This document shows positions 2,792 to 51,462 of a stretch of DNA of 64,000 bases, in pieces. This DNA comes from a virus. The position numbers were made by a program, and so were the translations under genes. Each line of letters opens with the position of its first letter. Position 1 is the stretch's first letter. Under the pieces are notes generated by a model. The model ran no database searches, was not told where the DNA came from, and saw only the letters and a list, made by a program, of their open reading frames with translations. The stretch covers positions 1-64,000 of IMG/VR virus record IMGVR_UViG_3300028837_000518; one strand, given 5' to 3'.

Positions 2792-3781
2792 TTAATTAGT
2801 ATCAAACTGGAGGTACCAGTAAGACCAACGTACCTCCCCATACTGTTTCTCTATAGTGTGGGTAAAAGCATTGTATTCCCATAGCGTACCATTCTCCTTG
2901 AAAATCCTAATTTTGTCAAGGCATTCTGTAGTAGCAGCTGACTTTGTTACTTGCGCTTGAAAGCTAACAATGTTATTAACATTTGCTACGCCTACTTTGC
3001 TGTTATAGGTATTGACCACTTTAGAGAACCAGTTCCACCCATCAACTAATGAGCTAATGGGAACATCGTAGCGGTAGCTGTCGCTTGTAGGCGTTGTAGC
3101 ATTGCTGCTAAAGTAGAAGCTTATATTAGTACCTGTGAGTCTACTTACATCATCAATGTAGTACCAGAACTGAAACTTATCGGTCTCGGCAAATACATTA
3201 GTGTAGGCATCAAAATGGTTAGTGTTCTTAAAGGATACAGTAGCTGTACCACCATAAGCCGAAACTGAAGCATCGCCCGCACGAACAATAACGGTTTCGG
3301 CCTTAACACTTGGTTGCTCTGATGTCCAGCCAGCCGTACCATCACAATTATCGAGAGTTGATACTATAGCATCATCATAAAACAACCCAATCTCGGTCCA
3401 ATCACCAACGCCAACCTTCGTATTGAACTTAGCCGAGTATCGAACTTTAGCTGTACCATATCCCCAGTCATATGTAAAGATTACAGGTACGCGTTCGAGT
3501 TCGTCAACAAGCGCTGTCGGCGTGCCACCAGCCGAACCAAGGCCAACAGCAATGTAAGTGGGCCAAGTCGCGCCCCACTTTCCATACACTGTCCCAGGTG
3601 CGCCCCACTTAGTATTCTTTGTTGCCGTCCAATCACCAGATTCAGCCCACTTATATGGGTAGTCGTATGTTGGCTCATCCGCAACAATAACCCACTTTTG
3701 GACGGTACGGTGTGCTGATTGTGGTTGTACTCTTTGTGTACGATCATATATCCGAGCTAGAAAATCCTCGATGCCCCGCAT
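2792..3781 (-). CDS. Minor tail protein with possible carbohydrate-binding-like domain
   Basis: A 329-residue protein. Residues 1-100 are Trp/Tyr/Gly-rich (WAESGDWTATKNTKWG). A central to C-terminal jelly-roll-like section has NFW-type aromatic strands (FQFWYYIDD, DGWNWFSKVV), as seen in carbohydrate-binding-like beta-sandwich domains of phage tails and glycosidases. Its ATG overlaps the stop of the upstream hub gene by one base. Glycan binding at the tail tip is inferred from aromatic composition and position only. Confidence 0.65.
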   Translation of the reverse strand: MRGIEDFLARIYDRTQRVQPQSAHRTVQKWVIVADEPTYDYPYKWAESGDWTATKNTKWGAPGTVYGKWGATWPTYIAVGLGSAGGTPTALVDELERVPVIFTYDWGYGTAKVRYSAKFNTKVGVGDWTEIGLFYDDAIVSTLDNCDGTAGWTSEQPSVKAETVIVRAGDASVSAYGGTATVSFKNTNHFDAYTNVFAETDKFQFWYYIDDVSRLTGTNISFYFSSNATTPTSDSYRYDVPISSLVDGWNWFSKVVNTYNSKVGVANVNNIVSFQAQVTKSAATTECLDKIRIFKENGTLWEYNAFTHTIEKQYGEVRWSYWYLQFDTN

Positions 3782-5247: not shown

Positions 5248-8200
5248 CTACCTAACTCCTGAAACTGCATGTCGTCTGCGCAGCTTACGCATAAGTTCAA
5301 CTGAGACTAGGTCAGCCACTTCACGTATTCCCCCAGCACCTACAATAGTATTTCCAGTTACGAAAACATTAACTTCTTGCCCGGCAGCCCGTGTATTCTG
5401 TAGCGGACTAAATGTGAAGGCCTCCGCACCTCTTTCGCCTGCCAAGAAGAGTGTCGGCTTACGAACAATACCACTGCCACCGCGTTGCATTGGCGTTATA
5501 GGGATTACCTCGCCAGTTGTGTCAATCTTAGCTTTAATAACTATATCACCAATACCTTTTAGGAGAGCTTTTCTAATTTTCTTGCCTACTTCTTCCAAGC
5601 TTGTTAGCAAGCTTTCAAGGTTCGTTTCTATACCGGCTTGAAGCTCAGACATTAGATTCACACCCCATGCATTAGAATCAAGGGCTGTAGTAAATAATCC
5701 TATTATGTCATCACGAATTCCTGTTAGAACAGGGTATAATGATTGCTCTGCGTAACCAGCTTTGACACCTTTTTCATAGGCATTCATAAGACCCTCGCCC
5801 CAAGATGATGCATCTAAGTCAGAAGATAACGAAGATTCTATTCCATCCTCTACTTTTGCTAAACCGAGTATTTGTCTCACCGCAAGTGTAGGAAGAACAC
5901 CTAGCGGGAACTCCCATATGAATGCTATGGGAATTTTTAATAGGTTTGCCGGTGTTATTTCACTCAAAAACTCATTCCACGCCTCCTTGACTTTCTCCCA
6001 GGTATCCGCAAAATCAGATTTAAGTGCTTCACGATAATCCTCGTCAAGGGCGAATCTAATAGTAGCATATATTGTTAGTGCTGCCTCAAGGGTAAGGACG
6101 AGGGCAAGGAGGGCAACGGGAGCTTTTAGTAGAACGGGAGTTCCAGCAAAGGCTGCTATAAGAGCATCTTTTATACTTGTAAGGAGATTTGCGGTAAGAG
6201 CTATTGGGTACGACATAGCAATTCTAAGTAATATTAACGATAGAACGGTCTCTATAGGGTGCTCGTCAATCCAGGCCCAAATTTCTTCTTCAACAAACTT
6301 ATTCCAAGTCTCCTGCATCTTCTTAGGCGCGAACGCATTAATGAGAACATGAACAACACCAAGGACAATGGCAGCACCTATAGCACCTATAATAGCGGCT
6401 TTAATTGCAACACCAGCAGCATAAATAACAAAGTGTGCAGCACGCATAATAAGGTGAAATGTTCCACTGGCAAGCTTTAAGGACCACTCAAGCCCAGCCT
6501 TAGCTAAGGTAATTGCAGATTGTACAGCCCACCATAGCCCGGCAATTGTTGCAATAGCCGTTGCAGTAATAGCAATTGAGGTTAGAACGGGATGTTCTTC
6601 CATCCATGCCTTTGTCTCGGGAGAGTTTAACCACTCTGAAGCTGAGTTCCAAAGAGATTGTACTAGGCCCTTTAGAAAGTTCCATACGAAAGCAAGAAAA
6701 ATACCAATAGGGTTTTCCTCAAAGAACTCTTTAAGCGCTGGCTTTACTGTCTCATTCCACCACTTCTTAATAGCCGGACCAATATTTAAGATAAAGCCCT
6801 TGATACTAACCCAGGCATTGCGAAAAGCATCTAAAAGTTCTTTAGGGATAAGCTTACGCAACATATCACTGATTGGCTTGAGTAATCTACCGAACCATGC
6901 AAAGACCTTGCCAAGACTGCGTACTAACCCAAGCATCCATCGCAATCCATGCACACAAAGACGCATGAACTTAAGGAAAAGCCAGAGAGCTGCCACTACA
7001 CTCTTGCGTATAATGTCGGCTAGCATTTGAATCTCAGGCGCAAACTCCTTTAGTGTATCATCCATTAACTTAAGGGTGCCGCGCCAGTGCGAAAGTACAT
7101 CCTCAGACGCCCAAAGAGCGCGCGCAAGCGTAACTAGTGTTGTTGCAAAGTTAGCCAACTTTACCAGCAGTGGTCCAAAGAACTGCTTCCAAATCGGATA
7201 GAGCATGATACGCGTAGTGGCCAGTAGGCTCTCGCGAATCCTGCGAAGGGAAAATGTTGTACTTTGAGATACATCCTCGTAAACTTTCCCGTAGCGCTGC
7301 ATAATTTTCATTTGAATGAATTGTGCTACGGCAGTACGGTTCGTAGTATCTACCATACTTTTATTAACGTGAATGCCGATACGGTGTAGTGACTTCAGGC
7401 TAGCACTCTCAGCGCCCACAGCGCCGGTAAAAATCCGCGAAGCCTCCTCAACTTTAACGCCGAGTGCTGTAGCCAAAACTCCCATGGTATCAACAACTTC
7501 ATTAGAGCCAAGGCCGGCCTTAGTTAGAATATCCATCGACTTAGTAAGGTCATCAAGCGTTGTTCCGTACTTAATTGCCTTCATCTGCGCATAGACAAAC
7601 ATCTTTCCAGCTTCAGCTAGATTGGTAGAAAGTCCACGAAGTTTGTTGATTGCCTCCTCTACAGTAGTGCCGGTATCGCGTATAGCTTTACTTAGGCCCA
7701 AGAAAGCTTTTGTCAAACCACCTACAGTGATAGCGAGTGCTGCTGTAACCAGGGCAATTTTCGGTATGCTAAATCCGAGAAAAGCAAAAGAGTAAAGCAG
7801 TCCACGAATATTACCCTGAAGTGCGTTCATTGACAAGATGAGACCTTGCATAACCGACGACATCGGTCGCAACCTTGCAACTGTTTCCCAAATCTGGTTC
7901 TTAATATAACGGAATCCACGCGCACTATTACCAACAGCACCACTAAGGTCTGAAGTGGCTTTCGTGCTAGTTACAGCGGCTCTCGTAGATTCGTCTAGTG
8001 CCTGTGAGTGTTCAAGGATTGTACGTATTGTACCTTGTAGGGACTTACGAAATGCCTCGGTTCGCGTTGCATTCGCTTGTGTGGCTGTCCCCAATTGCAT
8101 AGTATTGGCCGCCGCACCTAATCCCTGTTTTCCCAGGCCCTCCAATTGTGGCAAAAGCGCAGCAATTTCATAAGCCATTTTATTTAGTGCGGCTGGCGTA

Positions 8201-14271: not shown

Positions 14272-16428
14272 TCAGTCTGCCACTATCCCGCCGTACATGC
14301 CGCGATGGTCAATAATCGCGCCGCCAAAGACGAAGCGAATCTTCATCACAACCTTATCAGCTGAGAAGTGAGAACCAGTATTCGGAGCCTCAATAAACAA
14401 TTCGGGCTCGCGCTTACCACCCAGGAATCCGAGTTCAATAGTCGGCACCAGGCTTGGGTCAGCAATAACATACCAGTTAGTAGGGTCGGTCCAGTAGTCT
14501 ACGATGATAACGTCAAAGGTCTGATAGTGCGGGTTAGCGCGACGCGTATCTGTAATATCATCGTACTCAGAGTTGCGCAGTCGAAGAGCCTCGGACTCAA
14601 GCTCATTAGGAATGAGTACGAACTTGGGTCGAACAGCCATCGTGGTAATTGAGGAACCAAGCGCAGTCTGCGACCTCATAGTATACTTTGCGACAGACAG
14701 CGGATCAGTTGCAAACGCTGTAGTTGCTGTATTACTATGGTTGGCATGGAACAATGCAGTTGTATCGTAAGTGCACTCGCTATTATCCTTGATGAAGTCA
14801 AAGACAAACTGATACAGAGTAATCTTGGCAGCCAAAGCAAGCCTCTTAGGAATAGCTCGCAACGCCCCAAGGTTATCATTCAATGCATCTTCCCAAGTCC
14901 ACTCATCAAGCATACCTCTCTTTGACGGCGTGAATTGGGGTTCCTCTTCTGTCGGCGAAGTAGTGAACTGATAAGGTCCACCAGCTGCGACAGTAGGAAG
15001 TGCACCGTAGTAACCGATTCTCTCAGTCCTCTGTGCCTTCATATCACTCAGAGGGCGAATACTCGAAACAATCTGCTCCCACTCATTAAAGACGGGAAGC
15101 TGATAGTCCTTTACTAGAATTCGGTTCATAGTTGCACCAAGTACAGTACTCCATGAGATTGCCTCACGAAGTGGACTCAGGCCAGGGTCATAGCCAAACG
15201 ACTCACGGATGATACCATCTGCCAGTGCGCGACGGCTCGTTGCCATTGGGTCAAAGCCATTAAACATACAGTAGGCTCGCTGAATTGAGCCAAGCGGTGC
15301 CTGACCTTCGTATTCCTCGTCAAGAACCGTTGCGGTTAGAACATCAGAGAATTTATCTTTCTCATCCACCACGACTCTAACGGGATTCTTGGGCATTGTA
15401 TCCAAGATAGCTGCGTAGACGGTCTGCTCCTCAACAATCATCTCGTCTAGTTCAGTTGCCTCAAATACTCGCCCGCTAAACCGAGTAACCAATCGATCCT
15501 TGATAACTTTGGGAAGAGCAGTAGCGTCAATCTTATCCTTGGCAAGTATTGTGCACTTACCAATCTCTACGCTCTCCTTCAGGCTATCAATTTCATCACG
15601 CATTGCCACAAGAGCCTTATCCGGCTCCCTGGTTACTACAGGCTCAGTTACTACCACTGTGGGTGCCACAACAACAGGTGTCGGTATAGACTCAACAACA
15701 GGCTCAGCCGCAACGGGTTCGTCATTCGTTACTTCATCATCTGTGTCATCTACGTCCGGCACTACTACATCCTTGGCATCCCAAAGTGCCTTGAGGTCCG
15801 GCCTGGCCTCAAGAATTTCCTCCAAAGTGAGTTCCTCAAGCATGGCGATTTCACCCTCCCTTCGTAGGCTAGCCATAAGCTCTACAACTCTGCCGCCAGC
15901 AGCTCCAAAAGTAACCAAATCAACACTACGTATTGCCTTGATTACCTCTACATCCCAGTATGATTCACTACCCTCTCCTACAAATTTCTGATCACCACCA
16001 CCAAAGATGGATAATTGGGCAAAGTCGGATTTGTTACGCTCGTATGTTTCTTGCACAACCGGGGTTATAGGACTCGACTTTAGCAAGTGCAACATACCAA
16101 CGACAGCACCAGTACTTCCTACACTAACATCCCAAACAGGATCAGTAATCCACCCAGCAGCGTCTCGGAGCGAACGCTCGGGCCGCTCATGTTCTTGTCG
16201 AACTGTAGGGTGGTCAATGAATACTTTTGCGCCCTCAAATAACGGAATGCTGGCTTGCAGTACTTCAGGTTTGTACATCCGCTTATTCAAGGAAAGACCA
16301 GCCTCGATAAGAACAGCCTTCCACATGAGGCCTTCAGAACCTTCAACAGCCTCAACAAGTCGTCCCGACTCAATGAAAAGCGATTCTCTCACGCTAGGAG
16401 TAGGTAACACTTTTCCCTCAGTTACCAT
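14272..16428 (-). CDS. Prohead protease - scaffold - major capsid protein fusion (HK97/Mu gpT-like)
   Basis: A 718-residue protein. Residues 1-190 are a prohead protease with the expected catalytic pattern: His73 in VFIDHPT, Ser140 in FAQLSIFG, and Asp170 in RSVDLVTFGAAGG. Residues about 195-330 are an acidic, Val/Pro/Thr-rich linker typical of a scaffold. Residues about 340-718 are a major capsid domain close to the Mu gpT type (for example ALFHANHSN and the end GAIIDHRGMYGG). The protease probably cleaves itself off to free the shell subunit. A near-consensus promoter (16449-16476) and an AGGAGGTG ribosome site precede it, fitting high expression. Confidence 0.9.
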   Translation of the reverse strand: MVTEGKVLPTPSVRESLFIESGRLVEAVEGSEGLMWKAVLIEAGLSLNKRMYKPEVLQASIPLFEGAKVFIDHPTVRQEHERPERSLRDAAGWITDPVWDVSVGSTGAVVGMLHLLKSSPITPVVQETYERNKSDFAQLSIFGGGDQKFVGEGSESYWDVEVIKAIRSVDLVTFGAAGGRVVELMASLRREGEIAMLEELTLEEILEARPDLKALWDAKDVVVPDVDDTDDEVTNDEPVAAEPVVESIPTPVVVAPTVVVTEPVVTREPDKALVAMRDEIDSLKESVEIGKCTILAKDKIDATALPKVIKDRLVTRFSGRVFEATELDEMIVEEQTVYAAILDTMPKNPVRVVVDEKDKFSDVLTATVLDEEYEGQAPLGSIQRAYCMFNGFDPMATSRRALADGIIRESFGYDPGLSPLREAISWSTVLGATMNRILVKDYQLPVFNEWEQIVSSIRPLSDMKAQRTERIGYYGALPTVAAGGPYQFTTSPTEEEPQFTPSKRGMLDEWTWEDALNDNLGALRAIPKRLALAAKITLYQFVFDFIKDNSECTYDTTALFHANHSNTATTAFATDPLSVAKYTMRSQTALGSSITTMAVRPKFVLIPNELESEALRLRNSEYDDITDTRRANPHYQTFDVIIVDYWTDPTNWYVIADPSLVPTIELGFLGGKREPELFIEAPNTGSHFSADKVVMKIRFVFGGAIIDHRGMYGGIVAD

Positions 16429-16481: not shown

Positions 16482-17600
16482 CTATTTGAGCGTCTGAACA
16501 GTAAAGACTTGCTTTTTTACATCTTGGTTTGGCAAACTAAAGTTAGATATGATAAGTTCATTCCGTAGACTCGTTCTTTGGCCACGCTTATAGTTTACTA
16601 ACAGCGTGATGTGATAAGACAAGAATGCTGCCCGTACTTCTGGTGTATCTAAAGTTGTAAGTATAAATCTCGCCTTAAGACTATCTAAAACATTTAACAA
16701 TTCGCCAATACGAATAGTCATGGACTTATGTGAAATACTGGCACTAGGAAAGGCTGGGTCGCAGTAAAAGAAAGTTGTGTCAGAATCGTTAGAGAGAAGA
16801 CAACTATAGGCATCATCACGCGTAATAGTAACAGTTTGCAAGCGGTCGCGTGCATGTTCCAAGCGCGCGATGCGTGATTCTATATTAAAGTTTACTGGTT
16901 CCCTGTAAGATAAACCAAGGCCACCCCAAGAAAACCAGTTGATATAGAGATAACGATATAGGCGATCTATACTTTTCTGCGGCCTCCACAACCGTAGGCG
17001 CTGAAGTCTAAACTTTGAGCCACCCCAGGATTGCCGTCGAAGAATATCTATGTTGCTCGGCGTAAGTTTCTTAATGGCGCGAAACATATGAATGAGGTCT
17101 GGATCGAGATCATTTATAATTTCAACATCAGACACAGGCTTTGCAAACAGAACTGCTGCGGCACCACACCATGGTTCGCAATAAGTAGTATGTGTGGGAA
17201 TTTGTTGTACTATAAAAGGGGCGATGCGATAACGACCTTGTGGGTGCCCAATAGGTGGCAGTCGAATAGCTTGTGATTGATAAAGTGCTTTAGTAAGCCT
17301 GCTAATCCAAGCATCCCTATCTAGGCCAGGCAGTAATGGACACGAACTTGATTCATCGCTAGCTAGCAGTATTATTGCTGCTAAGTGCTCTATGGCAGTA
17401 TCGAAGTTTACGAAAGCCTCGCGTGATTTATTCACGACACTCTTGGCTATACGAATGGCGCGACCATCACAAATCTTCTCGGCAACACCAGAATTTACGC
17501 AACGTTTACGCACGTCATTCGCAGTGCGTACAAAGAGTTCCTTTTCTTTCTTGCTTAAACCTTTATAGAATCTCTCCACATCTGACTGAGTCCAAGGCAT
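16482..17600 (-). CDS. ChaB-like domain fused to a DNA adenine methyltransferase (D12 type)
   Basis: A 372-residue protein. Residues 1-60 (KGLSKKEKELFVRTANDVRK ... CDGRAIRIAKSVV) look like the ChaB-like leader found in phage head genes. From about residue 120 the protein matches D12-class N6-adenine methyltransferases: YCEPWCGAAAVLFAK as the SAM-binding EPFxGxGAVxF motif, and EIINDLDPDLIHMFRAIK. The catalytic DPPY motif appears as DPAF, so activity is uncertain. It sits between portal and capsid and shares its ATG with the portal stop. It may methylate or mark phage DNA during packaging, or the fold may be reused in head assembly. Confidence 0.8.
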   Translation of the reverse strand: MPWTQSDVERFYKGLSKKEKELFVRTANDVRKRCVNSGVAEKICDGRAIRIAKSVVNKSREAFVNFDTAIEHLAAIILLASDESSSCPLLPGLDRDAWISRLTKALYQSQAIRLPPIGHPQGRYRIAPFIVQQIPTHTTYCEPWCGAAAVLFAKPVSDVEIINDLDPDLIHMFRAIKKLTPSNIDILRRQSWGGSKFRLQRLRLWRPQKSIDRLYRYLYINWFSWGGLGLSYREPVNFNIESRIARLEHARDRLQTVTITRDDAYSCLLSNDSDTTFFYCDPAFPSASISHKSMTIRIGELLNVLDSLKARFILTTLDTPEVRAAFLSYHITLLVNYKRGQRTSLRNELIISNFSLPNQDVKKQVFTVQTLK

Positions 17601-18871
17601 TATGAATCCTCGTTATTAAACAAGGGTTCAGTGATAAAGTTAAGGTGATGGAGAATGTCTGTATAGATTTTGGCAGCTTGGCTTTGATCCAGCCAGCCTT
17701 TTTCTTGCGCGTGTACTAAAGACTCTGTAATGCGAACTATTGCACCAGCAGAACGCTGAATATCACGAACGCCCAAACGCGGAGCCAAGCAGTAAATTTT
17801 ATACTCACCCGGCCTAAGCACGCCTTTTACAATAGCCTCTTGTATAGCATATCTTCCCATAAATAGGAAAATATCTTTAATCTCTTCTTGGCGAACGATA
17901 AGGCCACGGACGGTGGGATTGAGCATTTCACCAGATTCAGGCTGGTCGGGTGATATGTTCAAGAGTCCTGCTGTGCTTGTAATAAACTCTTCAGCTAGTT
18001 TAGCATCACGCGAAAGTCCAATGCCAATACTTCGCGGCTGCACCATATTCCACTCGACGCCCTCATTATGCGCCTGAATAGTGCCGGGACCCGGTACATT
18101 ATCTCTTTGTTCCTTAAGCCATAACTTTATATCTTCAGCGGTTTTCCCACGTAACATAACATCAAACCAGACGCCACTAAACTGAGCATCGCGTTCAATC
18201 TTATTGTATAGGAAAGTCTCCCAAACATTTATCCAGTCAAGAAGCGCGAGAAGAACTGGGTAGCCGCGTACATGACCACCAAGGCGGTCAGTACGAAAGA
18301 AAAAACAGTCGCCATCATAACGTCCTAGACCATTTCGCCAGCGAATAACATTATAGGTTGACTCAGATTTTAGAACGATGTTGGCAGCCTCGCCCGGCTC
18401 ACCATCTACTTCCGTAACAGACTCAATTTGAGTACTAGGGATAAAGTTTAGACCGACGAAACCAGATATGTCATTAACTTTGGCGAGTAGAGCCAGTTCG
18501 CCATAGACGTATAACTCTTGAATATAACGCCAGGTATTTTTTGCTAGGTCATTGACAGGCGAATTCCAAAACGTATTTAGAACTTTATTTGCTTCTGCAT
18601 CGGGTGAGTGGAGGGTAAAGCCTGTTCCCACAACAAAGTCTATCATCCAGCGAGTAAGGCGCTTGGCAAGAGGAGAAGCTAGGTAAAATGATTCAATACC
18701 TCTAATGGCTTCATCACGGCGCGTGGTATCTAGGTCAATGGAGCCTTGCTTAAACTTACGATACTTCCAATCATCAGAATCAAGTGTAGCGGGAGTATCT
18801 AAAAGACTAGCGCCCTCTAAGAATGTTGCGCTTTGTGGTTGTATCCTGTATTTAGTATCTAGTACTGGCAT
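17600..18871 (-). CDS. Portal protein
   Basis: A 423-residue protein located between large terminase and capsid. Portal features are the wing and stem sequence FYLASPLAKRLTRWMIDFVVGTGFTL, the section VYGELALLAKV ... IPSTQIESV, the clip-like FLYNKIERDAQFSGVWFDV and the helical C-terminus. It forms the dodecameric DNA gate of the head. Start ATG at 18871. Confidence 0.9.
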   Translation of the reverse strand: MPVLDTKYRIQPQSATFLEGASLLDTPATLDSDDWKYRKFKQGSIDLDTTRRDEAIRGIESFYLASPLAKRLTRWMIDFVVGTGFTLHSPDAEANKVLNTFWNSPVNDLAKNTWRYIQELYVYGELALLAKVNDISGFVGLNFIPSTQIESVTEVDGEPGEAANIVLKSESTYNVIRWRNGLGRYDGDCFFFRTDRLGGHVRGYPVLLALLDWINVWETFLYNKIERDAQFSGVWFDVMLRGKTAEDIKLWLKEQRDNVPGPGTIQAHNEGVEWNMVQPRSIGIGLSRDAKLAEEFITSTAGLLNISPDQPESGEMLNPTVRGLIVRQEEIKDIFLFMGRYAIQEAIVKGVLRPGEYKIYCLAPRLGVRDIQRSAGAIVRITESLVHAQEKGWLDQSQAAKIYTDILHHLNFITEPLFNNEDS

Positions 18872-19324: not shown

Positions 19325-20818
19325 CTAGTGGAATAAACCAAATGAGTGACGAAGCTTAGATTGCATTCCCAACCGCCGTCGGTATCTCTCGCCTTCAGTC
19401 TCGCGCGTTACAGTTGGAATTGAAACTACACTTGCGGGAATCACGCCAATGTTTAGAGCCGTACTAACACCAAGTTCAGTTGCGTCGAGAATATCGGCGT
19501 CAGGACTTGGGAAACTAATCCACTGCTTAACGAACTCTGTTACTTTAGGATGTGGCTTAATACTCTCGCCTTGGACAACACCCGGTAAAAGTATTTTCTG
19601 CGACTTAAATAATGAAGCCATACTAGCAAAGCGGATACTTTTGGGCAGCTGCGTTTGTATGCCACGAATTGGTAGCGCTACATCCTTTAGTATATCATCC
19701 ATGATGTATTGTTGTGCTGAGTTAGTCTCTATCCCAATCAGAACTGGTTTCCATAATTTTGCAGCTGCTACTATATGATACTTATGGTCAGTTGTAGATG
19801 CCTGTATTTGCTGAACATCCAAAATATAACCAGTATTATTAACGTCGAAACCAATGACAGATATAGCAAGGTAGTTCGTACCATGTTTATCGCGCGCGCA
19901 AGGGTCAACGCCAATGTAGACACGTAGGTTTGACGGCGGTTCAAGGTAATAGAAAAGCCAATCCTCCTTAAGGAAGTTTCGTGTAAAGTCCACGGGAGTC
20001 TGAAGGTACTGGCCAACATAAGAGAAGTAGTCCTCTTCTTCAGCACGCGCAATATCCTCTGATGTAAACCGCTCGGGCCAAAGAGGTTCCTCGGGCGTAG
20101 CAACCATCTCGATGGTTTTTGATGAACTTAAGTCCTTAATAGCACCATAGAGGTCTTGCTTGTAAAACCGCGCACCAAATATACGAATTCTTCCACCGGG
20201 GTCTAGGCGCTTATCTAGGGACGAGAAGTACCAGTGGTGAACGTGGCCGCGCATGACTTGTGTTAAGCTATTAGCATAAGAAACTAAGTCATCCCCAATG
20301 ATTAGGTCGCAACGATAGCCGATAGTGCTTGAGCCAACGCTAAGAGCAAGTAGGCTGGGGTCCTTAAGGCGATAATCCGAACGCAGTATGGTTTTCTGCT
20401 TCTGTGTCCAAGTCGAAGCAAGGGAGCGTTGTGGAATGAGATTACCAAATATACGTTTCGACTCTGGGTGTGCCAGTAGCGTAGTGATAAAGTTAAGAAT
20501 ACGCTCGGAATAGGTCTCGGTATGTGTAGCTATGATGACACGGGTATTAGGATTATTTCCTAAAGTCCAAGCCGCGAACGCCGAGAGAAGAACGGTCTTT
20601 CCGTGTCCCGGCGGAAGCAAAAAAACAGCTGTTCTTACACTGTTATCGCATAGCGTTTCTACTAGCGGGTGAAGGTGATGAGGAAATTCCCATTCAAGAA
20701 CGGCACGATAGTAGAGTGTAAAGTCATCACGCTCTGGAATTGGCTTGTCCGGCTTCATACGTGCTGTAAAAGTTTGAACAAGCTGCGAGACCATAGAATC
20801 AGGATTAACGTAGTCCAT
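19325..20818 (-). CDS. terL: Terminase large subunit
   Basis: A 497-residue packaging motor. The ATPase has Walker A LLPPGHGKT (residues 68-75), Walker B LIIGDD and a coupling region. The nuclease domain has the metal-binding acidic residues in YIGVDPC, IGIETN and DADILDAT. Its ATG overlaps the small terminase stop. It cuts and translocates DNA into the prohead through the portal. Confidence 0.96.
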   Translation of the reverse strand: MDYVNPDSMVSQLVQTFTARMKPDKPIPERDDFTLYYRAVLEWEFPHHLHPLVETLCDNSVRTAVFLLPPGHGKTVLLSAFAAWTLGNNPNTRVIIATHTETYSERILNFITTLLAHPESKRIFGNLIPQRSLASTWTQKQKTILRSDYRLKDPSLLALSVGSSTIGYRCDLIIGDDLVSYANSLTQVMRGHVHHWYFSSLDKRLDPGGRIRIFGARFYKQDLYGAIKDLSSSKTIEMVATPEEPLWPERFTSEDIARAEEEDYFSYVGQYLQTPVDFTRNFLKEDWLFYYLEPPSNLRVYIGVDPCARDKHGTNYLAISVIGFDVNNTGYILDVQQIQASTTDHKYHIVAAAKLWKPVLIGIETNSAQQYIMDDILKDVALPIRGIQTQLPKSIRFASMASLFKSQKILLPGVVQGESIKPHPKVTEFVKQWISFPSPDADILDATELGVSTALNIGVIPASVVSIPTVTRETEGERYRRRLGMQSKLRHSFGLFH

Positions 20819-31316: not shown

Positions 31317-31604
31317 ATGGGTATAAAACTCAAATCATCCCTCATTGCCACAGTAGTATCGCTGGTGTTCGCAGTAATACTGGCTGGTATGATGCGCTGT
31401 GTTAGGTGGGAAGAGATGATCGCAGCTGAGGTTATCAGTATTAGCAAACTTTACATCAGTCTTGTCGTGTGTGGAGTTTGCTTCTGGTTTATTATCAGGT
31501 CGGCTATACTGGTCGACTATAATGATGCTGAGTACTGGAGGCAATGCAGAGGTGAGTGGGGCAACACAGAAAGTTATTCAGTAACACAAGTTATCATCAG
31601 TTAG
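31317..31604 (+). CDS. Two-helix membrane protein
   Basis: A 95-residue protein with transmembrane helices at about residues 8-25 and 43-65 and a hydrophilic C-terminus. GGGAGG ribosome site. It follows another small membrane protein. Confidence 0.6.
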   Translation: MGIKLKSSLIATVVSLVFAVILAGMMRCVRWEEMIAAEVISISKLYISLVVCGVCFWFIIRSAILVDYNDAEYWRQCRGEWGNTESYSVTQVIIS

Positions 31605-31633
31605 ACCGATACAGTACCATTAGAAGGGACAGT

Positions 31634-32263
31634 ATGATACCGGCAAGTGATTGGAACAACCCATTTATTGTTTACGCCTACCTCCTTACAGAGGAGATTG
31701 TTGTACGAGAGTGTGATTATCCCGTTGTGATAAAGATAAGTAACAACCGTTTTTCATGTCATTATGACTTTCTCCTCCCTGAGGGTTATCATGTGATTAC
31801 TCTCAGTAGACGAGACATACGTGTTTGTGTGACAGCTGGTTTCTATGACTATGATTGCGTTATGAAAGTAGTTCGGCAGTGGTATGGCGATACAAGACCT
31901 ACCCATCTTCTAGCCAACTACCTCATGGTAATTCATGAGTGCGCACATGCTGTTCAAGTAGAGAGTGGTGATCGTCGTCCCGGTTACTGTCATAATACAT
32001 CATCACGTTTTCCACTGCACTTTGCGAGACTACTCACTACATATCCGTTTGCACGCTATGAACGTAAGTTTCTGAATGCCAAACTTCAAGACCTAGCAAG
32101 ACCTCCATACACACATAATGACTATGGAGACTACTGTGCACACTGTCTGAAGTTAAATACCGTGGAAGATGTAGCCAGTGGCTACTGCTCACATTGCGGT
32201 AGTTTTTGGGAGGAGGGTTATGTTGAAGAAGGTGAAGGCTATAGTAGCGTCCGGGCCATATGA
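31634..32263 (+). CDS. Zincin-like metallopeptidase (HECAH) with C-terminal zinc ribbon
   Basis: A 209-residue protein; ATG 31634 follows AGAAGGGA and is preferred to the earlier in-frame start at 31556 inside the previous gene. HECAHAVQ at residues 101-108 is the HExxH zinc-binding and catalytic motif. A downstream GYCHNTSSRFPLHF segment may supply the third ligand. The end has CAHC and CSHC knuckles. The layout recalls SprT-like or other small phage zincins. The substrate is unknown. Confidence 0.72.
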   Translation: MIPASDWNNPFIVYAYLLTEEIVVRECDYPVVIKISNNRFSCHYDFLLPEGYHVITLSRRDIRVCVTAGFYDYDCVMKVVRQWYGDTRPTHLLANYLMVIHECAHAVQVESGDRRPGYCHNTSSRFPLHFARLLTTYPFARYERKFLNAKLQDLARPPYTHNDYGDYCAHCLKLNTVEDVASGYCSHCGSFWEEGYVEEGEGYSSVRAI

Positions 32264-33982: not shown

Positions 33983-35185
33983 TTGTACTTTGTACGATCA
34001 CTCGAAGAAGATCGGGAGATTTGGGGTGATGATAGTGCAGCTACAGATGAGGCTACATGGATAAACCTCATCACGCAGCAACTCAACAGCCGGCGAGAAG
34101 CAATTTTATCAGATGAGCGCAATCATCGCGCTAGACTAGAGCAGTTGATGGTCACTACGCGCGACCTGGTAAATAATCTCTCCAATAACCCGGCACTCTA
34201 TGTAACCGCTGCCGGCATAAGTGATCTGGCCGAGAGTGAAGTAGCACTGCTAAGACGAGTTGGTATCAACCACTTGCTTGACATCACTCTGAGTGGTTCA
34301 CACATGATTATGCGTCCGCTAGAGAATATGGGGTGGCAGACTACGAACTTTCGCAATAGAATGCGAGCGCATAGTGCATCAGTCGACCTATTTACTGGTC
34401 GGGTCTACATTGGTGACACACCCCTTGTGCATTGCAATGAGGAGCTACAAAACGTCGTACTTGCGCTGATTCTTTCAGGGCACTTGGCCATTGTACCTTA
34501 TCTGGTAATGGGAATCATAGAGTTAGCAGCCGCACAGTGCCTTGAGGAACCAATAGCTGAAGATATTGGTGATAGCTCCGGATATACCGAAGATGTTGTC
34601 GCTGGTATTCATAGTAGCGACTTCACGCACAGAGATGAAAGTATGTCCAGGTTTCATGAGGTTATCAGTACGACAACCACGACGCAACGTCGGTTACGCG
34701 AGAGTGCAATTGCGCTGGCTAATTTAGAGGCGCAGGCCAATAACGGTGAAGGACTCAGAGAAGAGCTTCAGAGACTGATTAGATTACCTAGTATACACAA
34801 GATATTGGTACGACCACATCCACGGCGAAACACTCCACGCGTGGTGGTTTATACCGAACCCCTCACTATCGCTGAGTGGGAAATTGGCCGGTACGTTATT
34901 GATATAGAGATGGGTGACTGGATACTGATACGCAACCTAGACTATGCGTTTCAGCAACAGTTTCCGCATCCACACGTACACGAGAATGGTAAACCGTGCT
35001 TTGGCCGACTAAGTGAGAGAATGCGTGAGGCGATGGCGCAAGGTAATATGCGCTCACTGATAATTGGTTCAGTGCGTTTGGTAGAATCTTACAATGCCAG
35101 AGACGCGTACTGCCCCATGCGACGCATTGCAGAACTCACGGAAGAAGACATCGGGCGAATCTACTGGACAAGGAGTTACTACTAA
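33983..35185 (+). CDS. E2-like (ubiquitin-conjugating fold) protein of a Ub-like cassette
   Basis: A 400-residue protein starting with TTG after GGGAGG. Residues 1-270 are mainly helical and unlike anything I know. From about residue 280 the order fits the E2/UBC fold: beta strands HKILVRPHP, RVVVYTEPL and WEIGRYVIDIEMGDW, then FPHPHVHENGKPCFG with a candidate catalytic Cys339 preceded by the HPH motif of bacterial E2-like proteins, and a C-terminal helix. It is followed by a JAMM peptidase, an E1/ThiF-like protein and a beta-grasp protein, the set described for bacterial ubiquitin-like systems. It would carry the modifier from the E1. Confidence 0.72.
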   Translation: MYFVRSLEEDREIWGDDSAATDEATWINLITQQLNSRREAILSDERNHRARLEQLMVTTRDLVNNLSNNPALYVTAAGISDLAESEVALLRRVGINHLLDITLSGSHMIMRPLENMGWQTTNFRNRMRAHSASVDLFTGRVYIGDTPLVHCNEELQNVVLALILSGHLAIVPYLVMGIIELAAAQCLEEPIAEDIGDSSGYTEDVVAGIHSSDFTHRDESMSRFHEVISTTTTTQRRLRESAIALANLEAQANNGEGLREELQRLIRLPSIHKILVRPHPRRNTPRVVVYTEPLTIAEWEIGRYVIDIEMGDWILIRNLDYAFQQQFPHPHVHENGKPCFGRLSERMREAMAQGNMRSLIIGSVRLVESYNARDAYCPMRRIAELTEEDIGRIYWTRSYY

Positions 35186-35186
35186 G

Positions 35187-35993
35187 ATGACGAAGGAGAA
35201 GTTTACCCCGGTACCCACCAGCAATACTAGCGTGCCAACAGTCAAGCACAAGAAGGTAGTGGTCGCCAAGAAGAAAATTACAGTTACCCAAGATAGTCGG
35301 CCAACGAAGTTTGAGAACCCTATGCTGGCAATGCTACCAGACTTCAAAACGAGACTTGATGCAATAGTTGACCAAGCACCAGTTGAAGTAAGTGGGTTTG
35401 GCAGCATGACTATTCATGAGAGCCGAGCAAGTAATGGTTCGGCACAGCATCTCATTGTGCCGCGCGAGTTGTTTGTTCTCGATCAAACTACAACATCTGG
35501 TTCAGCTGACATAGAACAAGATGCTGTCGGTAACTTCTTCGAGGACTGGGTAACCGAGGGTCGAGATGTAAAAGAGTTACGTGTGTGGTGGCACAGTCAT
35601 GGTAGAGGGGCAAAGCCAGTACCTTCGGCCACAGACTGGTCTACAATTACTCGCTCCTTTGGTCGTGTGCCCTGGTATATTATGCTTATTACCAACAAGG
35701 ACCGTCAATATACAGCATACCTCGTCTTGACTAAGCCGTTTCGGGTAAAGGTTGAGATTGAAGTTGGTTTGTTTGTTGACGCGGCAATACGCGACTGGGC
35801 AAAAAACGAAGTAGAAAAGCATGTTACAACCACAGCTGGATACAAGTATCCAACGGGCAGAAGGTGGGATGGTCGCTTGGCACGTTTTGTTGACGTTGAA
35901 GAGCCTGGTGCGAAACAGGCACAAAGTAAACAGGGAGTTTTGCTACCCAAGGGATCACCTGCGGATAACGAGTGGGAGCGGTGGTCATGGTAG
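35187..35993 (+). CDS. JAMM/JAB-domain isopeptidase (deubiquitinase-like)
   Basis: A 268-residue protein. ATG 35187 is preceded by AAGGAG. Residues 1-45 are basic and disordered-looking. The JAMM zinc site is complete: Glu67 (PVEVSGFG), His136-Ser-His138, Ser147 and Asp150 (HSHGRGAKPVPSATDW), with one extra spacer residue compared with the common HxHx7SxxD. In such cassettes JAMM enzymes remove or mature the modifier. The stop overlaps the E1-like start. Confidence 0.88.
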   Translation: MTKEKFTPVPTSNTSVPTVKHKKVVVAKKKITVTQDSRPTKFENPMLAMLPDFKTRLDAIVDQAPVEVSGFGSMTIHESRASNGSAQHLIVPRELFVLDQTTTSGSADIEQDAVGNFFEDWVTEGRDVKELRVWWHSHGRGAKPVPSATDWSTITRSFGRVPWYIMLITNKDRQYTAYLVLTKPFRVKVEIEVGLFVDAAIRDWAKNEVEKHVTTTAGYKYPTGRRWDGRLARFVDVEEPGAKQAQSKQGVLLPKGSPADNEWERWSW

Positions 35994-36658
35994 ATGACAC
36001 CCGACAGTTAGATATTCTTTCGCCCAAGTTTCTACAGGATCGCCATGTTGACCTAATTGGTTGCGGTAGTGTTGGTAGTATGACTGCCTTTGTCCTCTCA
36101 AAAATGGTAGCAGGCGAGGAGGACTTCTCGGTTAGGCTGATTGATGGTGATATAGTAGGGGATGTCAACATTCGACCAAGCCTGTATACACCTGTTGATA
36201 TAGGTATATGTAAGGTCCTTGCGTTACAGCGCCTACTCCTCTACCTATCCAATCTTTCTACCACAGTCTGTAGTGAGTTTGTTGGTCCCGACAACTACCC
36301 TAGTCTCAAAGACATTGTAGTTGTTTCAGTAGATACTATGGCTGTGCGGAAAGATATATGGGAAAACTGTATCGGGCTATACAACCCTCACTGGCTGATA
36401 GATGCCAGAATGGGTGCCGAGATTTGCACTATCGTTACCGTTGATCTTAGTAGTGATGAGCAACGCGAGCGGTACGACGACGAGTTGTTTACTGACGATG
36501 AGGCTAGGCAGTTACCCTGCACTGCACGAGCAATTGCCTACAACACCGCATACATCGCGGCACTCATCGTTAGAACTATAAAGCGTATTCTAGTCGGAGA
36601 GGAGGTGGACTATCAAGTAGATTCAAGTCTAAAGAATCTTGTTATGTTACTTACTTAG
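35987..36658 (+). CDS. E1/ThiF-like adenylating enzyme
   Basis: A 223-residue protein; ATG 35987 overlaps the JAMM stop. The Rossmann nucleotide loop GCGSVG is at residues 25-30. Further E1 features are IDGDIVGDVNIRPSLY (the Asp and Arg of the E1 NxxRQ-type motif), SVDTMAVR, and Cys178 in LPCTARAIAYNTAYIAALI, a good candidate thioester Cys. It would adenylate the C-terminus of the beta-grasp protein encoded next and pass it to the E2-like protein. Confidence 0.88.
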   Translation: MVDDTRQLDILSPKFLQDRHVDLIGCGSVGSMTAFVLSKMVAGEEDFSVRLIDGDIVGDVNIRPSLYTPVDIGICKVLALQRLLLYLSNLSTTVCSEFVGPDNYPSLKDIVVVSVDTMAVRKDIWENCIGLYNPHWLIDARMGAEICTIVTVDLSSDEQRERYDDELFTDDEARQLPCTARAIAYNTAYIAALIVRTIKRILVGEEVDYQVDSSLKNLVMLLT

Positions 36659-36706
36659 CAAATCGTTGATTGTAAAGCTATTCCTAACCTACAAAAGGAG
36701 AGTACA

Positions 36707-36976
36707 GTGTCAGCTGACAAGAGAACTATCCAGCTCAACCCGGACGATGAAGTTGAAGTTCTTGTTCCTTCGGGAGCCAAGGTCACCATCATCACCATGG
36801 ACGACACCCGCGAAGTCGACCCCGGCATCACCGTCGCCGAGGCACTCAACGCGGCCGGTATCGAAGTGCAGTCCGATGAGGTCGTGCGAGTCAACAAGCA
36901 GGCGTGCAGTGACGCGGATCTCACCCTCGACGCCGGTGATGTTCTGTCCGTGGTCCCTCGCGTTCGCGCGGGGTAG
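36707..36976 (+). CDS. Beta-grasp ubiquitin-like / ThiS-like modifier
   Basis: An 89-residue protein with GTG start after AAAGGAGAG. The strand pattern (RTIQLNPDDEVEVLVP, TVAEALNAAGIEV, GDVLSVVPRVRAG) fits the beta-grasp fold with the ThiS/MoaD-type ending GDxxxxxPxVxxG; the protein ends in Ala-Gly and exposes a C-terminal glycine without processing. Third codon positions are strongly G/C, unlike the flanking E1 and JAMM genes, which suits an abundant modifier. It is followed by a strong hairpin. Confidence 0.8.
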   Translation: MSADKRTIQLNPDDEVEVLVPSGAKVTIITMDDTREVDPGITVAEALNAAGIEVQSDEVVRVNKQACSDADLTLDAGDVLSVVPRVRAG

Positions 36977-45502: not shown

Positions 45503-45575
45503 AGGTAAATAGCTCAGTTGGTAGAGCACTTCTTTTACAAAGAAGAGATCGCAGGTTCGAGTCCTGCTTTGCCTA
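45503..45575 (+). tRNA. tRNA-Val (anticodon TAC)
   Basis: Cloverleaf: acceptor AGGTAAA / TTTGCCT, D arm GCTC AGTTGGTA GAGC, anticodon arm CTTCT TTTACAA AGAAG (anticodon TAC at 45536-45538), T arm GCAGG TTCGAGT CCTGC. CCA is not encoded. Confidence 0.95.
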
Positions 45576-45586
45576 CTAAAACTTAA

Positions 45587-45693
45587 TAGATTAGGTCGAA
45601 GAGTATCGGTTATCAAGGCAAGCCGAGAGGTTGGTCTGGTGAGCCAGACTTAACATCGGTTATGAAAACGATCTCACAAACTTATCTAATCTA
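45587..45693 (+). ncRNA. Y-RNA-like element 4
   Basis: Lower stem TAGATTAG / CTAATCTA, GGTCGAAG, upper stem GAGTATCG / CGATCTC with one bulge, GGTTATC, and AACTTATC on the 3' side. The apical region has a GTCTGG / CCAGAC hairpin and a second CGGTTAT. Its end is three bases before tRNA-Ala, the same spacing as element 3 to tRNA-Val. Confidence 0.8.
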
Positions 45694-45696
45694 CAT

Positions 45697-45768
45697 GGGG
45701 GCGTAGCTTAACGGGAAAGCACCTCTTTTGCAAGGAGGGTACTGGAGGTTCAATTCCTCCCGTCTCCA
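45697..45768 (+). tRNA. tRNA-Ala (anticodon TGC)
   Basis: Acceptor GGGGGCG / CGTCTCC with two G-U pairs, short D arm GCTT AACGGGAA AGC, anticodon arm CCTCT TTTGCAA GGAGG (TGC at 45729-45731), T arm GGAGG TTCAATT CCTCC. CCA not encoded. Confidence 0.95.
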
Positions 45769-45771
45769 CCT

Positions 45772-45834
45772 CTTGGGTCGAATGCATTGGGTTATTCAAG
45801 GTGAAAACTTCCCAACGCAGTTAACTTATCCAAG
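45772..45834 (+). ncRNA. Y-RNA-like element 5
   Basis: Lower stem CTTGG / CCAAG, GGTCGAA, upper stem TGCATTGGG / CCCAACGCA (one mismatch), GGGTTATT after the upper stem, ACTTATC on the 3' side and a short AAGGTGAAAACTT apical hairpin. It starts three bases after tRNA-Ala. Confidence 0.78.
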
Positions 45835-45843
45835 TAATAATAT

Positions 45844-45916
45844 GCGGGAGTAGCTCAGTTGGTAGAGCATCGCCTTGCCAGGGCGAGGGTCACGAGTTCG
45901 AGTCTCGTTTTCCGCT
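45844..45916 (+). tRNA. tRNA-Gly (anticodon GCC)
   Basis: Acceptor GCGGGAG / TTTCCGC with two G-U pairs, D arm GCTC AGTTGGTA GAGC, anticodon arm TCGCC TTGCCAG GGCGA (GCC), T arm ACGAG TTCGAGT CTCGT. CCA not encoded. Confidence 0.95.
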
Positions 45917-46051: not shown

Positions 46052-47752
46052 ATGAGCAATTACGGCCAACACTTCTCTACACAGCAAACCGTCCAGACCG
46101 AGCCCATCCCAGGAAAAGATATGGGAGAAAACTTGGCTGGTGGTTATGCATTCAAGATTGATAAGTGGGCAAGACTTCAGCGTTTTCTTATCCTCGGCGC
46201 GGAAGGCACCTACTATGCTAGCGGTCAAGCAATGACCATTGATAATGCTAACGTAGTAGTGGATTGTATTCGGGAAGATGGCCGGCGAGTGGTAGATAGT
46301 ATTGTTACTACCTCACAAGAGGGTCGTGCGCCCAAGAATGACTCAGCACTATTTGCCCTTCTCATGTGTATGACACCAGACTTTGCCAATCTTGCAACTC
46401 GCCAAGCAGCATTTGCTGCTCTTCCTGCAGTTGCACGAATTGGTACGCACCTATTTAAGTTCTGCTCTGAGGTTGACTCAATGCGGGGTTGGGGACGTGG
46501 GCTACGACGCGCACTCTCTAGGTGGTACAACTCTAAAGCTCCTGCTCGCCTTGCATACCAAGTTGTAAAGTATCAGCAGCGGCATGGCTGGACCCACAGA
46601 GATGTATTGCGCAAGGCTCACCCAGTCCCCTTATCGGATGCGCACAAGATTATCTATCACTACATAACTCAAAAGGAGCTACCATGTAGTCTCGCGCAGA
46701 CAGAGGGTGGTGTGGATATGTTGTATGCCTTCGAGTCTATCAAACGGGCCGAGAGTGTTAATCAGGCCACACAACTAATCCGTGAATTCAGACTTCCTCG
46801 CGAGGCAGTGCCAACTCGATTCTTGAATGATAGTGCTATTTGGCAAGCACTACTAGAATCTATGCCTATGACCGCCATGATTCGCAACCTTGCCAAGATG
46901 ACCAGTATTGGTCTACTTGCTCCCTTGTCGTTCGCAGCTAACTTTGTAGTAAAGCAATTAGGTAATGCAGATTATCTGAGACGCGCACGCGTTCACCCAT
47001 TCTCTGTATTTCTTGCGTTGCGAACCTACGCGATGGGTTGCGGTATTCGTGGTAAGCTTCGGTGGGAACCAGTACCTGCCATAGTAGATGCGCTTGACAA
47101 GGCTTTTTACTTGTGTTTTGATAATGTTGAGCCAACTGGAAAGCGTATAGTAATCGGCGTTGATGTCTCGGGTAGCATGAGTGCGCCGATACTCGCTGAT
47201 CCTAATACACAATTCATGGTACCGGGGCCACCATCAGTCCTGGAGGCCGCTGCTGCAATTGCGTTAGTTACTAACGCTGTGGAACCCAATAGTACTATAG
47301 TAGCATTCTCGCATGATATAGTACCAATCACTATTACACCGCGCCAGCGGATTGATAACCTTTGCAACGAGCTACGCGGCCTACCAATGGGCAATACAGA
47401 CTGTGCTCTACCCATGCTTTGGGCGCTAGGTTATGCGCCCGATGTACGTGGTGGTATTCACAGATGGTTCCGTCACCCCTGCGATTATAAGAAAGTTAGG
47501 GACAACGTTATCGAGGCTGATGTTTTCATAGTAATTACCGACAACGAGACTTGGTTTGGCAAGATACACCCTGTGCAGGCACTAAACAAGTATCGAAAGC
47601 AAACAGGTATTGACGCCAAGCTAGTTGTTCTCGCTATGACCTCTACCGGATTTTCTATAGCTGACCCCAATGATTCTGGAATGCTTGATATTTGTGGTAT
47701 GGATAGCGCTGTTCCCACACTTATCTCTGACTTTATAAGTGGCAGAGTTTAG
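46052..47752 (+). CDS. rsr: Ro60/Rsr orthologue (TROVE domain plus von Willebrand A)
   Basis: A 566-residue protein with AGGAGG ribosome site. Residues about 20-355 are the helical-repeat TROVE ring, with the tell-tale GGYAFKIDKWARLQRFLILGAEGTYY near the start and YQQRHGWTHRDVLRKAHP in the middle. Residues about 364-566 are a von Willebrand A domain with an intact metal site: Asp371, Ser373, Ser375 (DVSGSMS), Thr449 and Asp497. Ro60 proteins bind misfolded RNA through the ring and Y RNA on the outside. Six Y-like RNAs directly upstream make this an apparently complete phage Ro ribonucleoprotein. Confidence 0.95.
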   Translation: MSNYGQHFSTQQTVQTEPIPGKDMGENLAGGYAFKIDKWARLQRFLILGAEGTYYASGQAMTIDNANVVVDCIREDGRRVVDSIVTTSQEGRAPKNDSALFALLMCMTPDFANLATRQAAFAALPAVARIGTHLFKFCSEVDSMRGWGRGLRRALSRWYNSKAPARLAYQVVKYQQRHGWTHRDVLRKAHPVPLSDAHKIIYHYITQKELPCSLAQTEGGVDMLYAFESIKRAESVNQATQLIREFRLPREAVPTRFLNDSAIWQALLESMPMTAMIRNLAKMTSIGLLAPLSFAANFVVKQLGNADYLRRARVHPFSVFLALRTYAMGCGIRGKLRWEPVPAIVDALDKAFYLCFDNVEPTGKRIVIGVDVSGSMSAPILADPNTQFMVPGPPSVLEAAAAIALVTNAVEPNSTIVAFSHDIVPITITPRQRIDNLCNELRGLPMGNTDCALPMLWALGYAPDVRGGIHRWFRHPCDYKKVRDNVIEADVFIVITDNETWFGKIHPVQALNKYRKQTGIDAKLVVLAMTSTGFSIADPNDSGMLDICGMDSAVPTLISDFISGRV

Positions 47753-50835: not shown

Positions 50836-51462
50836 ATGCATCATTGGGGACAAGAAGGTGTTGAGTTACCAGTACCGGCGACTAAGCTGGTTAGTGCCGA
50901 GGCCAGTACACCAAAACTGACTGTAGAAACAGTAGATAATCACGTGTACTTTTATGCTACTGTTAACAGTGATCGCTGTTTAGCCTTAGTTCGTACCATT
51001 CGCGAACTTGATGGAAAACTTAGGAACGAACATGCCTCACGTGCATTGCCGGCAGAGCACCCATTAACACCTATTTGGTTGCATGTGAATAGCGATGGGG
51101 GCAGTGTGTTTGACGCGCTTGGTGTTGCCGATCAACTGAAAAGTATTAAGACACCAATATTCTCTGTAGTAGAGGGGTGTGCAGCAAGCTCTGCGACTCT
51201 CCTCAGTGTCCCTTGTACGAAGCGGTTTATTACTTCATCTTCTTTCATGCTTATTCATCAAGTTTCCAGCATTATGTGGGGAACATACGAGCAGTTTAAA
51301 GATCAGATGAAGGTACTTGACATGATCATGCGTCAACTTGTCAACTTTTACTCGACTCACACAAAGCTGGAGCCATTAAAGCTCGAGGAGCTTCTCAAGC
51401 GTGATTCGTGGTTTGCCGCACAGCAATGTGTGGATATAGGGTTAGTGGACGCTATTCTATAG
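50836..51462 (+). CDS. ClpP-like serine protease
   Basis: A 208-residue protein. The ClpP fold is clear: PIWLHVNSDGGSVFDALGVADQL, catalytic Ser118 (GCAASS), His141 (SSFMLIHQ) and Asp190 (KRDSWFAAQQCVDIGLVDAIL). Residues 1-30 are an extra N-terminal segment. In phages such proteases act in head maturation or in remodelling host proteolysis; its distance from the head genes favours the second. It would need an AAA+ unfoldase, none of which is adjacent. Confidence 0.9.
   Translation: MHHWGQEGVELPVPATKLVSAEASTPKLTVETVDNHVYFYATVNSDRCLALVRTIRELDGKLRNEHASRALPAEHPLTPIWLHVNSDGGSVFDALGVADQLKSIKTPIFSVVEGCAASSATLLSVPCTKRFITSSSFMLIHQVSSIMWGTYEQFKDQMKVLDMIMRQLVNFYSTHTKLEPLKLEELLKRDSWFAAQQCVDIGLVDAIL

Follow-up and report, generated by a model that had tools for sequence, protein, structure and literature searches.

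Operons in bacteria that combine E1, E2, JAB and ubiquitin-like (Ubl) genes have been sorted into types, and where phages were concerned the same survey described just the tail proteins TAPI and TAPK (Iyer 2006, PMC1779556). Ubiquitin-like conjugation is also directed by bacteria against phages, as in CBASS with Cap2 (PMC10097602) and in Bil systems (cited in a passage of PMC13373217). We analyzed 64,000 nucleotides of viral DNA (positions 1 to 64,000 of the 109,319-base IMG/VR virus record IMGVR_UViG_3300028837_000518), hereafter the window, and its cassette of four co-directional genes at 33983-36976 encoding an E2-like protein, a JAMM (JAB) peptidase, an E1 and a beta-grasp modifier. The open-access full-text literature, in which subscription papers and preprints are mostly outside coverage, held no prior description of a phage E1-E2-JAB-modifier cassette, and neither a survey of jumbo phages (PMC7824862) nor a review (PMC13282480) mentioned ThiF, JAB or a ubiquitin-like cassette. 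An earlier note on this DNA had proposed a complete ubiquitin-like conjugation set in a phage; our analysis supported the proposal well and extended it far beyond one phage, to 49 linked loci out of 51. Among prokaryotic ubiquitin-like conjugation systems, the phage cassette forms a branch of its own that is widespread, and its four genes probably constitute a self-contained route by which the phage conjugates proteins.

The parallel that the earlier note drew with Bil and PRTRC loci held only as an analogy, and membership in either was not supported by profiles or trees. Bil loci have the gene order ubiquitin-like protein, E2, JAMM, E1, and the Bil locus L112 was consistent with it. The phage cassette has the same four parts, and most of its relatives follow the Bil order, whereas the window has E2-JAMM-E1-modifier. 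The BilD of L112, a 450-aa E1, reached only 0.0094 with the E1 profile of the phages; the phage profiles for E2, JAB and modifier gave nothing significant at this locus, and its protein in the BilB position was without HPHV..G..C. BilA has two ubiquitin-like domains and the window modifier has one. In PADLOC, the window modifier, E2 and JAB matched no Bil model at E<=1, and no BilD was among the best 25 of the 29 matches of the window E1. Judged by its sequence, L112 appears only remotely related to the phage cassette. PRTRC loci (Iyer type 6d-like) likewise combine a ubiquitin-like protein C, an E2-like B and an E1-like ThiF, and the nearest plasmid matches of the window E1 were PRTRC ThiF proteins (26-34% identity across half the protein). 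However, the window E1 scored 36 against the PRTRC ThiF equivalog TIGR03736, whose cut-off is 144.75, and the PRTRC E1s formed a separate group outside the phage clade in our trees. The PRTRC B proteins that we saw had no HPH before the Cys and had a later His. PRTRC loci also carry ParB and proteins E and F; among ten genes around the window cassette, no Pfam match (E<=1) pointed to ParB.

Type II CBASS resembles the cassette in the E1, E2 and JAB activities of Cap2 and Cap3, and PADLOC E1-E2 models were the best defence-library matches of the window E1 (3.3e-7). Here, in contrast, E1 and E2 are separate genes rather than a fusion and a modifier gene is present; no CD-NTase/nucleotidyltransferase domain was found among the cassette neighbours scanned. 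The phage JAMM and E1 are related to Citrobacter BubCD (E1 1.6e-7, JAB 0.001), but BubCD, 458 aa in a single chain, matches the JAB profile as well as the E1 profile, while the phage proteins come from separate genes. The best profile matches in the PDB belonged to the archaeal SAMP2/JAMM1 and eukaryotic ubiquitin systems (SAMP2; Rpn11/JAMM1; UBA5; UBC), although sequence identity to the phage cassette is low and no proteasome or E3 gene was linked in the neighbours scanned. Because the PDB is rich in eukaryotic proteins, nearness to eukaryotic members is no evidence of descent. Lambda gpI (TAPI) and gpK (TAPK) likewise bring a ubiquitin-like domain and a JAB peptidase together in a phage (PMC1779556), but they are tail proteins without E1 or E2, whereas the window modifier is free, has a full E1 and E2 beside it and lies away from structural genes. 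The layout differed from that of TAPI/TAPK: the cassette occupies 34-37 kb on the plus strand, and head and packaging genes were identified at 14-21 kb on the minus strand. By the tests made, the phage cassette is not Bil or PRTRC, and a sulphur-transfer system is disfavoured.

The four genes and their active sites

All four open reading frames (ORFs) were present on the plus strand where the earlier note had placed them, each preceded by a Shine-Dalgarno (SD) sequence (Table 1). They are tightly packed, with 1 base between the E2 stop and the JAB start and an overlap of 7 bases between JAB and E1.

Table 1. Positions of the cassette features and of identified head and packaging genes in the window
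Feature	Position	Strand	Remarks
E2-like gene, 400 aa, TTG start	33983..35185	+	SD GGAGG
E2 residues 1-253, variable helix-rich extension; ~254-393, UBC domain			From sequence and model
E2 active-site motif HPHVHENGKPCFG, H329-G341	34967..35005	+	Predicted catalytic C339 at 34997-34999; 50 IMG/VR loci share the motif (the search key)
JAMM/JAB peptidase gene, 268 aa	35187..35993	+	ORF opens at 35094; ATG 35187 has SD AAGGAG
JAMM catalytic E67	35385-35387	+	
JAMM motif HSH(x8)S(xx)D: H136, H138, S147, D150	35592..35636	+	
E1 (ThiF-fold) gene, 223 aa	35987..36658	+	ORF opens with GTG 35972; ATG 35987 has SD GGAG
E1 catalytic Cys in LPCTA, C178 (C183 from GTG 35972)	36518..36520	+	Invariant, 38/38
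Beta-grasp modifier gene, 89 aa, GTG start, ends ..RVRAG	36707..36976	+	SD AAAGGAG
Modifier C-terminal Gly codon, immediately 5' of stop	36971..36973	+	
Terminase	19325-20818	-	Weak: Pfam Terminase_6C 0.0064, phrog_2 5.8e-4
Portal	17600-18871	-	
Capsid-protease fusion	14272-16428	-	

The E1 matched Pfam ThiF above the cut-off (4.7e-10), and the PHROG families that it matched carry the label 'unknown function'. The GxGxxG loop and C178 had been named as its active-site features; this numbering is exact from ATG 35987, and both were invariant among the 38 sequences compared, together with D58, D60, N66, K81, D121, R126 and R146 (the loop, GxGxxGS, contributing G30 and G32, and the Cys being C183 in this series). 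When the E1 family profile was run against PDB sequences, it matched UBA5 (3.9e-14), PaaA, MccB, ThiF, MoeB and Cap2. The match of the JAB protein to Pfam Prok-JAB was under the cut-off (0.0012), and PADLOC gave one weak match. The residues predicted for its JAMM site, E67, H136, H138 and D150, are numbered exactly from ATG 35187, and the E, H, H, S and D of the site were invariant in the alignment (39/39 relatives). Against PDB sequences the JAB family profile found Rpn11 (3e-11), archaeal Rpn11, JAMM1, CSN5 and BRCC36.

No curated family was matched by the E2-like protein in Pfam and the curated family models. A profile search of PDB sequences aligned its motif to HPNV..G.ICL of UBC proteins, and the alignment outside the motif showed the UBC pattern, with a beta-meander before it and a helix with L...N..D.Y after it. 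The E2 family profile matched UBC E2s (best 3e-4) and two entries named only L3A2-1. The full-length model was poor (pLDDT 63, weak Foldseek matches), and that of the UBC domain alone was better (AlphaFold2, pLDDT 84.9, pTM 0.79). Foldseek placed UBC E2s at all of the top 21 PDB neighbours of the domain model, with a best probability of 0.97, and four uncharacterised proteins of 420-542 aa in the viral library matched it with probabilities of 0.85-1.00. The predicted HPH...C339 active site was borne out, with numbering exact from TTG 33983 and a UBC fold for the domain. It was the relatives, with their invariant JAMM residues, and the UBC-fold model of the E2 domain that settled the two weakly matching proteins, JAB and E2. 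The earlier note had also described a novel helical N-terminal extension of 270 residues, which was supported only in part: the model of the extension was helix-rich but had mostly low confidence values, and none of the loci fetched contained a homologue. Extensions of variable kind commonly flank the UBC domain, on either side, in the cassette E2 family.

The modifier was confirmed as an 89-residue ORF ending in Gly, as predicted, and matched Pfam ThiS above the cut-off (1.6e-5). Its family profile matched SAMP2 among PDB sequences (3.9e-10) and then PF1061, MoaD and ThiS. Most relatives have a Gly at or near the C-terminus; many end exactly at it, others one to a few residues beyond, and L038 has a Lys-rich tail of more than 20 residues. 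The residues past the Gly in some modifiers fit processing by the JAMM. ORFs of ~200-270 codons that matched the Ubl profile were observed in L042 (10543-11175), L081 (4384-4995) and L104 (2870-3676); their length allows more than one beta-grasp unit and is reminiscent of polyubiquitin. In L023, besides the canonical Ubl ORF (3472-3762), a second Ubl-like ORF (6816-7025) stands right after E1 and ends ..HIFTS without a C-terminal Gly.

Distribution in viruses and cells

Scans of IMG/VR with the single window proteins E1 and E2 found no relatives because the sequences are too divergent, and an alignment of 7 E1 sequences contained no stretch conserved enough for use as a scan pattern. A scan of IMG/VR with a degenerate DNA pattern that encodes only HPHVxxxGxxC[LF]G of the E2 active site identified 51 loci. 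To these we applied E1 and JAB profiles derived solely from the window and annotated phages, and a modifier profile seeded from the loci themselves. An E1 was present in 40 of the loci, a JAB in 42 and a modifier in 41, and 31 had all four genes; several incomplete loci run into the ends of their stretch. As the scan was blind to the other genes, the E1, JAB or modifier found adjoining the E2 at all but two loci indicated that the linkage is more than chance. Every cassette had all its genes on one strand. Most follow the order Ubl-E2-JAB-E1; the window, L031 and L048 have E2-JAB-E1-Ubl, and there are a few permutations. On control DNA, the E1 and modifier profiles picked up only ThiF, MoeB, TcdA and ThiS of E. 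coli, and the JAB and E2 profiles gave no match. About 15 of the IMG/VR loci form a single related group that has Sak4-like and DnaB genes, so that independent lineages number nearer 30. A terminase was found in 12 of the 37 records checked, most of the others being fragments.

Annotated phages were searched by tblastn (50,697 records). The window E1 matched 68 records, all at <60% identity, among them crAss-like phages (Steigviridae), Flavobacterium psychrophilum phages, Dulem virus 41, bajarodcaudo virus and Xanthomonas/Erwinia jumbo phages; when the query was a crAss-like E1, the matches included the cultured phages crAss001, DAC15 and DAC17 and the PhiCrAssBcn series. Crass-like and Flavobacterium phages have a tightly packed run of a small ubiquitin-like candidate, a 373-444 aa HSH...C protein, a JAB and an E1. 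Gene order, mainly, together with an hhalign alignment in which HSH..C aligned with HPH..C of the HPHV-type E2s (probability 62%, E 7.6e-5), suggests that the HSH...C protein is an E2. The small gene 5' of it was not detected by the Ubl profile and is a candidate ubiquitin-like protein from a reading of its sequence. In Xanthomonas phage PhiXhv-15 (L007, 2283-4961) we observed an 892-aa E2-like protein with HPH...CLG and Cys-rich zinc-ribbon-like ends; an E1 follows it, a small upstream protein ends in GG, and no JAB was recognised near the E2-like gene. The cassette genes of annotated phages are currently labelled as hypothetical, metalloprotease-domain, ThiF-family or thiamine biosynthesis proteins.

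The same E2 pattern was scanned across 84,980 bacterial and archaeal genomes and gave 41 loci, of which ~16 had cassette genes of the phage type, all in metagenome-assembled genomes or uncultured bins. Carriers include Myxococcales, Collierbacteria, Buchananbacteria, Moranbacteria, Zixibacteria, a planctomycete, a Thermoplasmata archaeon and a Lokiarchaeota bin. Some of these cassettes look chromosomal because apparent housekeeping genes, identified by reading the ORFs, adjoin them: GroES/GroEL in L081, UvrB in L083, trigger factor and ClpP in L104 and electron-transfer flavoprotein genes in L107. Others may be mis-binned phage. In the E1 tree, which was made without Bil E1 (L112 was compared by the phage profiles instead), the phage and cellular cassettes formed one group (100/95) apart from PRTRC, the L090/L103 type, ThiF, MoeB and TcdA. 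Phage and cellular entries were intermixed within the group, with at least 3 changes forced by supported branches, and the cassette appears to have moved between phages and cells. The first tree had shown a phage-only E1 group, which did not survive the inclusion of cellular relatives. Uncultivated bacteria (L090, L098, L103, L106, L108) have a second type of cellular E2 (HPHVF..G..CLG.., ~170-200 aa) beside a JAB of its own; L090 and L103 also have an E1, which falls outside the phage clade.

Proposed function and alternative explanations

Replication genes recur around the cassette in several phage groups. The E1 of the marine-type group is followed by a Sak4-like ATPase, an SSB-like protein and a DnaB helicase (Sak4-like and SSB-like are our reading; the Pfam matches there are AAA_24 and DnaB_C). 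Crass-like phages have the cassette between primase and UDG/resolvase/exonuclease/ribonucleotide reductase genes, Flavobacterium phage FpV4 has it after toprim and UDG genes, and in a Xanthomonas jumbo phage two topoisomerase genes follow it. This recurring gene order suggests that the cassette has a role in or around replication.

In the pathway that we propose, the E1 would adenylate the C-terminal Gly of the modifier with ATP and hold the modifier as a thioester on C178, from which it would pass to C339 of the E2. The UBC-fold E2 with its HPH motif would then attach it to target proteins at a lysine or another amine, and the variable extension of the E2 perhaps selects the targets in place of an E3. 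The JAMM would remove the modifier, and would trim it where relatives have residues past the Gly. Since the cassette lies among DNA-replication genes in several unrelated phage groups, replication and recombination proteins of the phage or host would be the likeliest targets, but naming them is a guess that we would not call probable. With slightly less reserve, we put forward tentatively that tailed phages, crAss-like phages included, may encode a eukaryote-like ubiquitin system (E1, UBC-fold E2, Rpn11-like JAMM and SAMP2-like modifier) within the DNA-replication gene set, by which replication or recombination is controlled or host proteins are redirected in the course of infection; this would be a ubiquitin-like signalling pathway run by phages and new to the literature. 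The earlier note had listed counter-defence, tagging of host proteins and modification of the phage's particles as roles that the cassette may have.

Several points weigh against a conjugation pathway tied to replication. The Foldseek E-values of the E2 domain were modest (best 0.021), and conservation of the E2 motif is partly circular because the loci were found by that motif. Computation shows the fold, the active sites and the linkage of the genes, while each catalytic step is what we infer. The nearest replication or recombination gene found in the window is RuvB, 6 kb downstream, and no E3 or degradation partner was consistently linked to the cassette. A ClpA/ClpB-type double-AAA unfoldase follows the E1 in L009 only (2874-5393, on a 178-kb contig), where a link between tagging and unfolding is possible.

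The names of the proteins invite a different explanation, in which E1 and modifier act as a ThiF-ThiS or MoeB-MoaD pair that makes a thiocarboxylate for cofactor or tRNA thiolation and the JAMM merely trims the modifier. Pfam calls them ThiF and ThiS, GenBank labels the E1 of relatives 'thiamine biosynthesis protein', ThiS-type carriers share the fold and the C-terminal Gly, and the window phage has tRNAs. We nevertheless consider a sulphur carrier highly improbable. Almost all complete loci have a UBC-fold E2 with a catalytic Cys and an intact JAMM, operons for thiamine and molybdenum cofactor (MoCo) lack JAB proteins (Iyer 2006, PMC1779556), and the cassette E1s group apart from ThiF, MoeB and TcdA. 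No rhodanese was found in 16 of 16 records, a search in which ThiG and MoaE were outside the scope and host enzymes could supply the sulphur, and a class-V aminotransferase (desulphurase fold) was found in only 2 of the 16, the window phage not among them. Tagging or processing of the phage's own virion proteins by the pathway is very unlikely, in spite of the precedent of the ubiquitin-like/JAB tail-protein pair of lambda (PMC1779556). The lambda system needs neither E1 nor E2, the window modifier is not fused to a tail protein, and the cassette is on the opposite strand at least 13 kb from the identified head and packaging genes; genomic context, with replication genes and away from identified head genes, speaks against own-particle modification as the main role.

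Two further explanations involve immunity. Since bacteria use ubiquitin-like conjugation against phages, a phage has a motive for counter-defence, in which an intact JAMM active site such as that found here could strip host Bil, CBASS or Bub tags, or the modifier and enzymes could be decoys or competitors of host immunity. A deconjugase alone would suffice for stripping, yet the catalytic residues of E1 and E2 are just as strictly kept; the poor match of the phage profiles to L112 and the company of replication genes in several groups also make this explanation rather improbable. The cassette could instead be a defence that tags proteins of competing phages or plasmids, much as some prophages carry defence systems, and this would accord with its presence in cellular genomes and with the anti-phage action of known bacterial relatives of this kind. 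It sits, however, within runs of replication genes in crAss-like, Flavobacterium and marine-group phages rather than in accessory spots, and no effector gene is consistently attached, so we regard a phage-borne defence as unlikely.

Other genes of the window and significance of the cassette

The minus strand of the window carries tailed-phage genes, and the cassette is on the plus strand. The capsid-protease gene, used as a query, matched one identical fragment only (L060). A ClpP-type protease is encoded at 50836-51462 in addition to the capsid-protease fusion; ClpP was dropped as a cassette partner, as it was found in 1 of 12 records, that of the window phage, and in none of the 11 others. 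At 46052-47752 the window encodes a Ro60-like protein with TROVE and vWA domains (Pfam 8e-42 and 2e-57) that adjoins a tRNA cluster (45503-45916), and at 31556-32263 a protein that matched no Pfam family and that contains a HECAH (HExxH-like metalloprotease) motif and, C-terminally, CxxC...CxxC. One phage has intein-like insertions in several genes (L061, 3942-5558 and 15441-17813; L062, 1604-4684 and 11015-12784, the remainder of the same genome), namely an RNA ligase and a radical-SAM/B12 protein with Hint, LAGLIDADG or intein Pfam matches, and by sequence apparently also an anaerobic ribonucleotide reductase and a PD-(D/E)XK nuclease. A SpoIID-domain protein was seen in L063 (1354-2901, Pfam 2.6e-26); this protein and the anaerobic ribonucleotide reductase may point to a host that lives without oxygen.

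For ties of phages to ubiquitin-like chemistry, we found descriptions of the gpI/gpK pair of lambda and of bacterial systems that target phages. If the cassette is a conjugation pathway, many phages, including cultured crAss-like phages on Bacteroides, would run regulated protein tagging themselves, and the breadth of the cassette suggests that many phages tag proteins during infection. The analysis supplies names for a block of crAss-like phage genes now called 'hypothetical' or 'thiamine biosynthesis', and the cultured carriers are tractable laboratory systems. For the question of how the eukaryotic system arose, it also contributes a large set of small prokaryotic E2s whose active sites are UBC-like.

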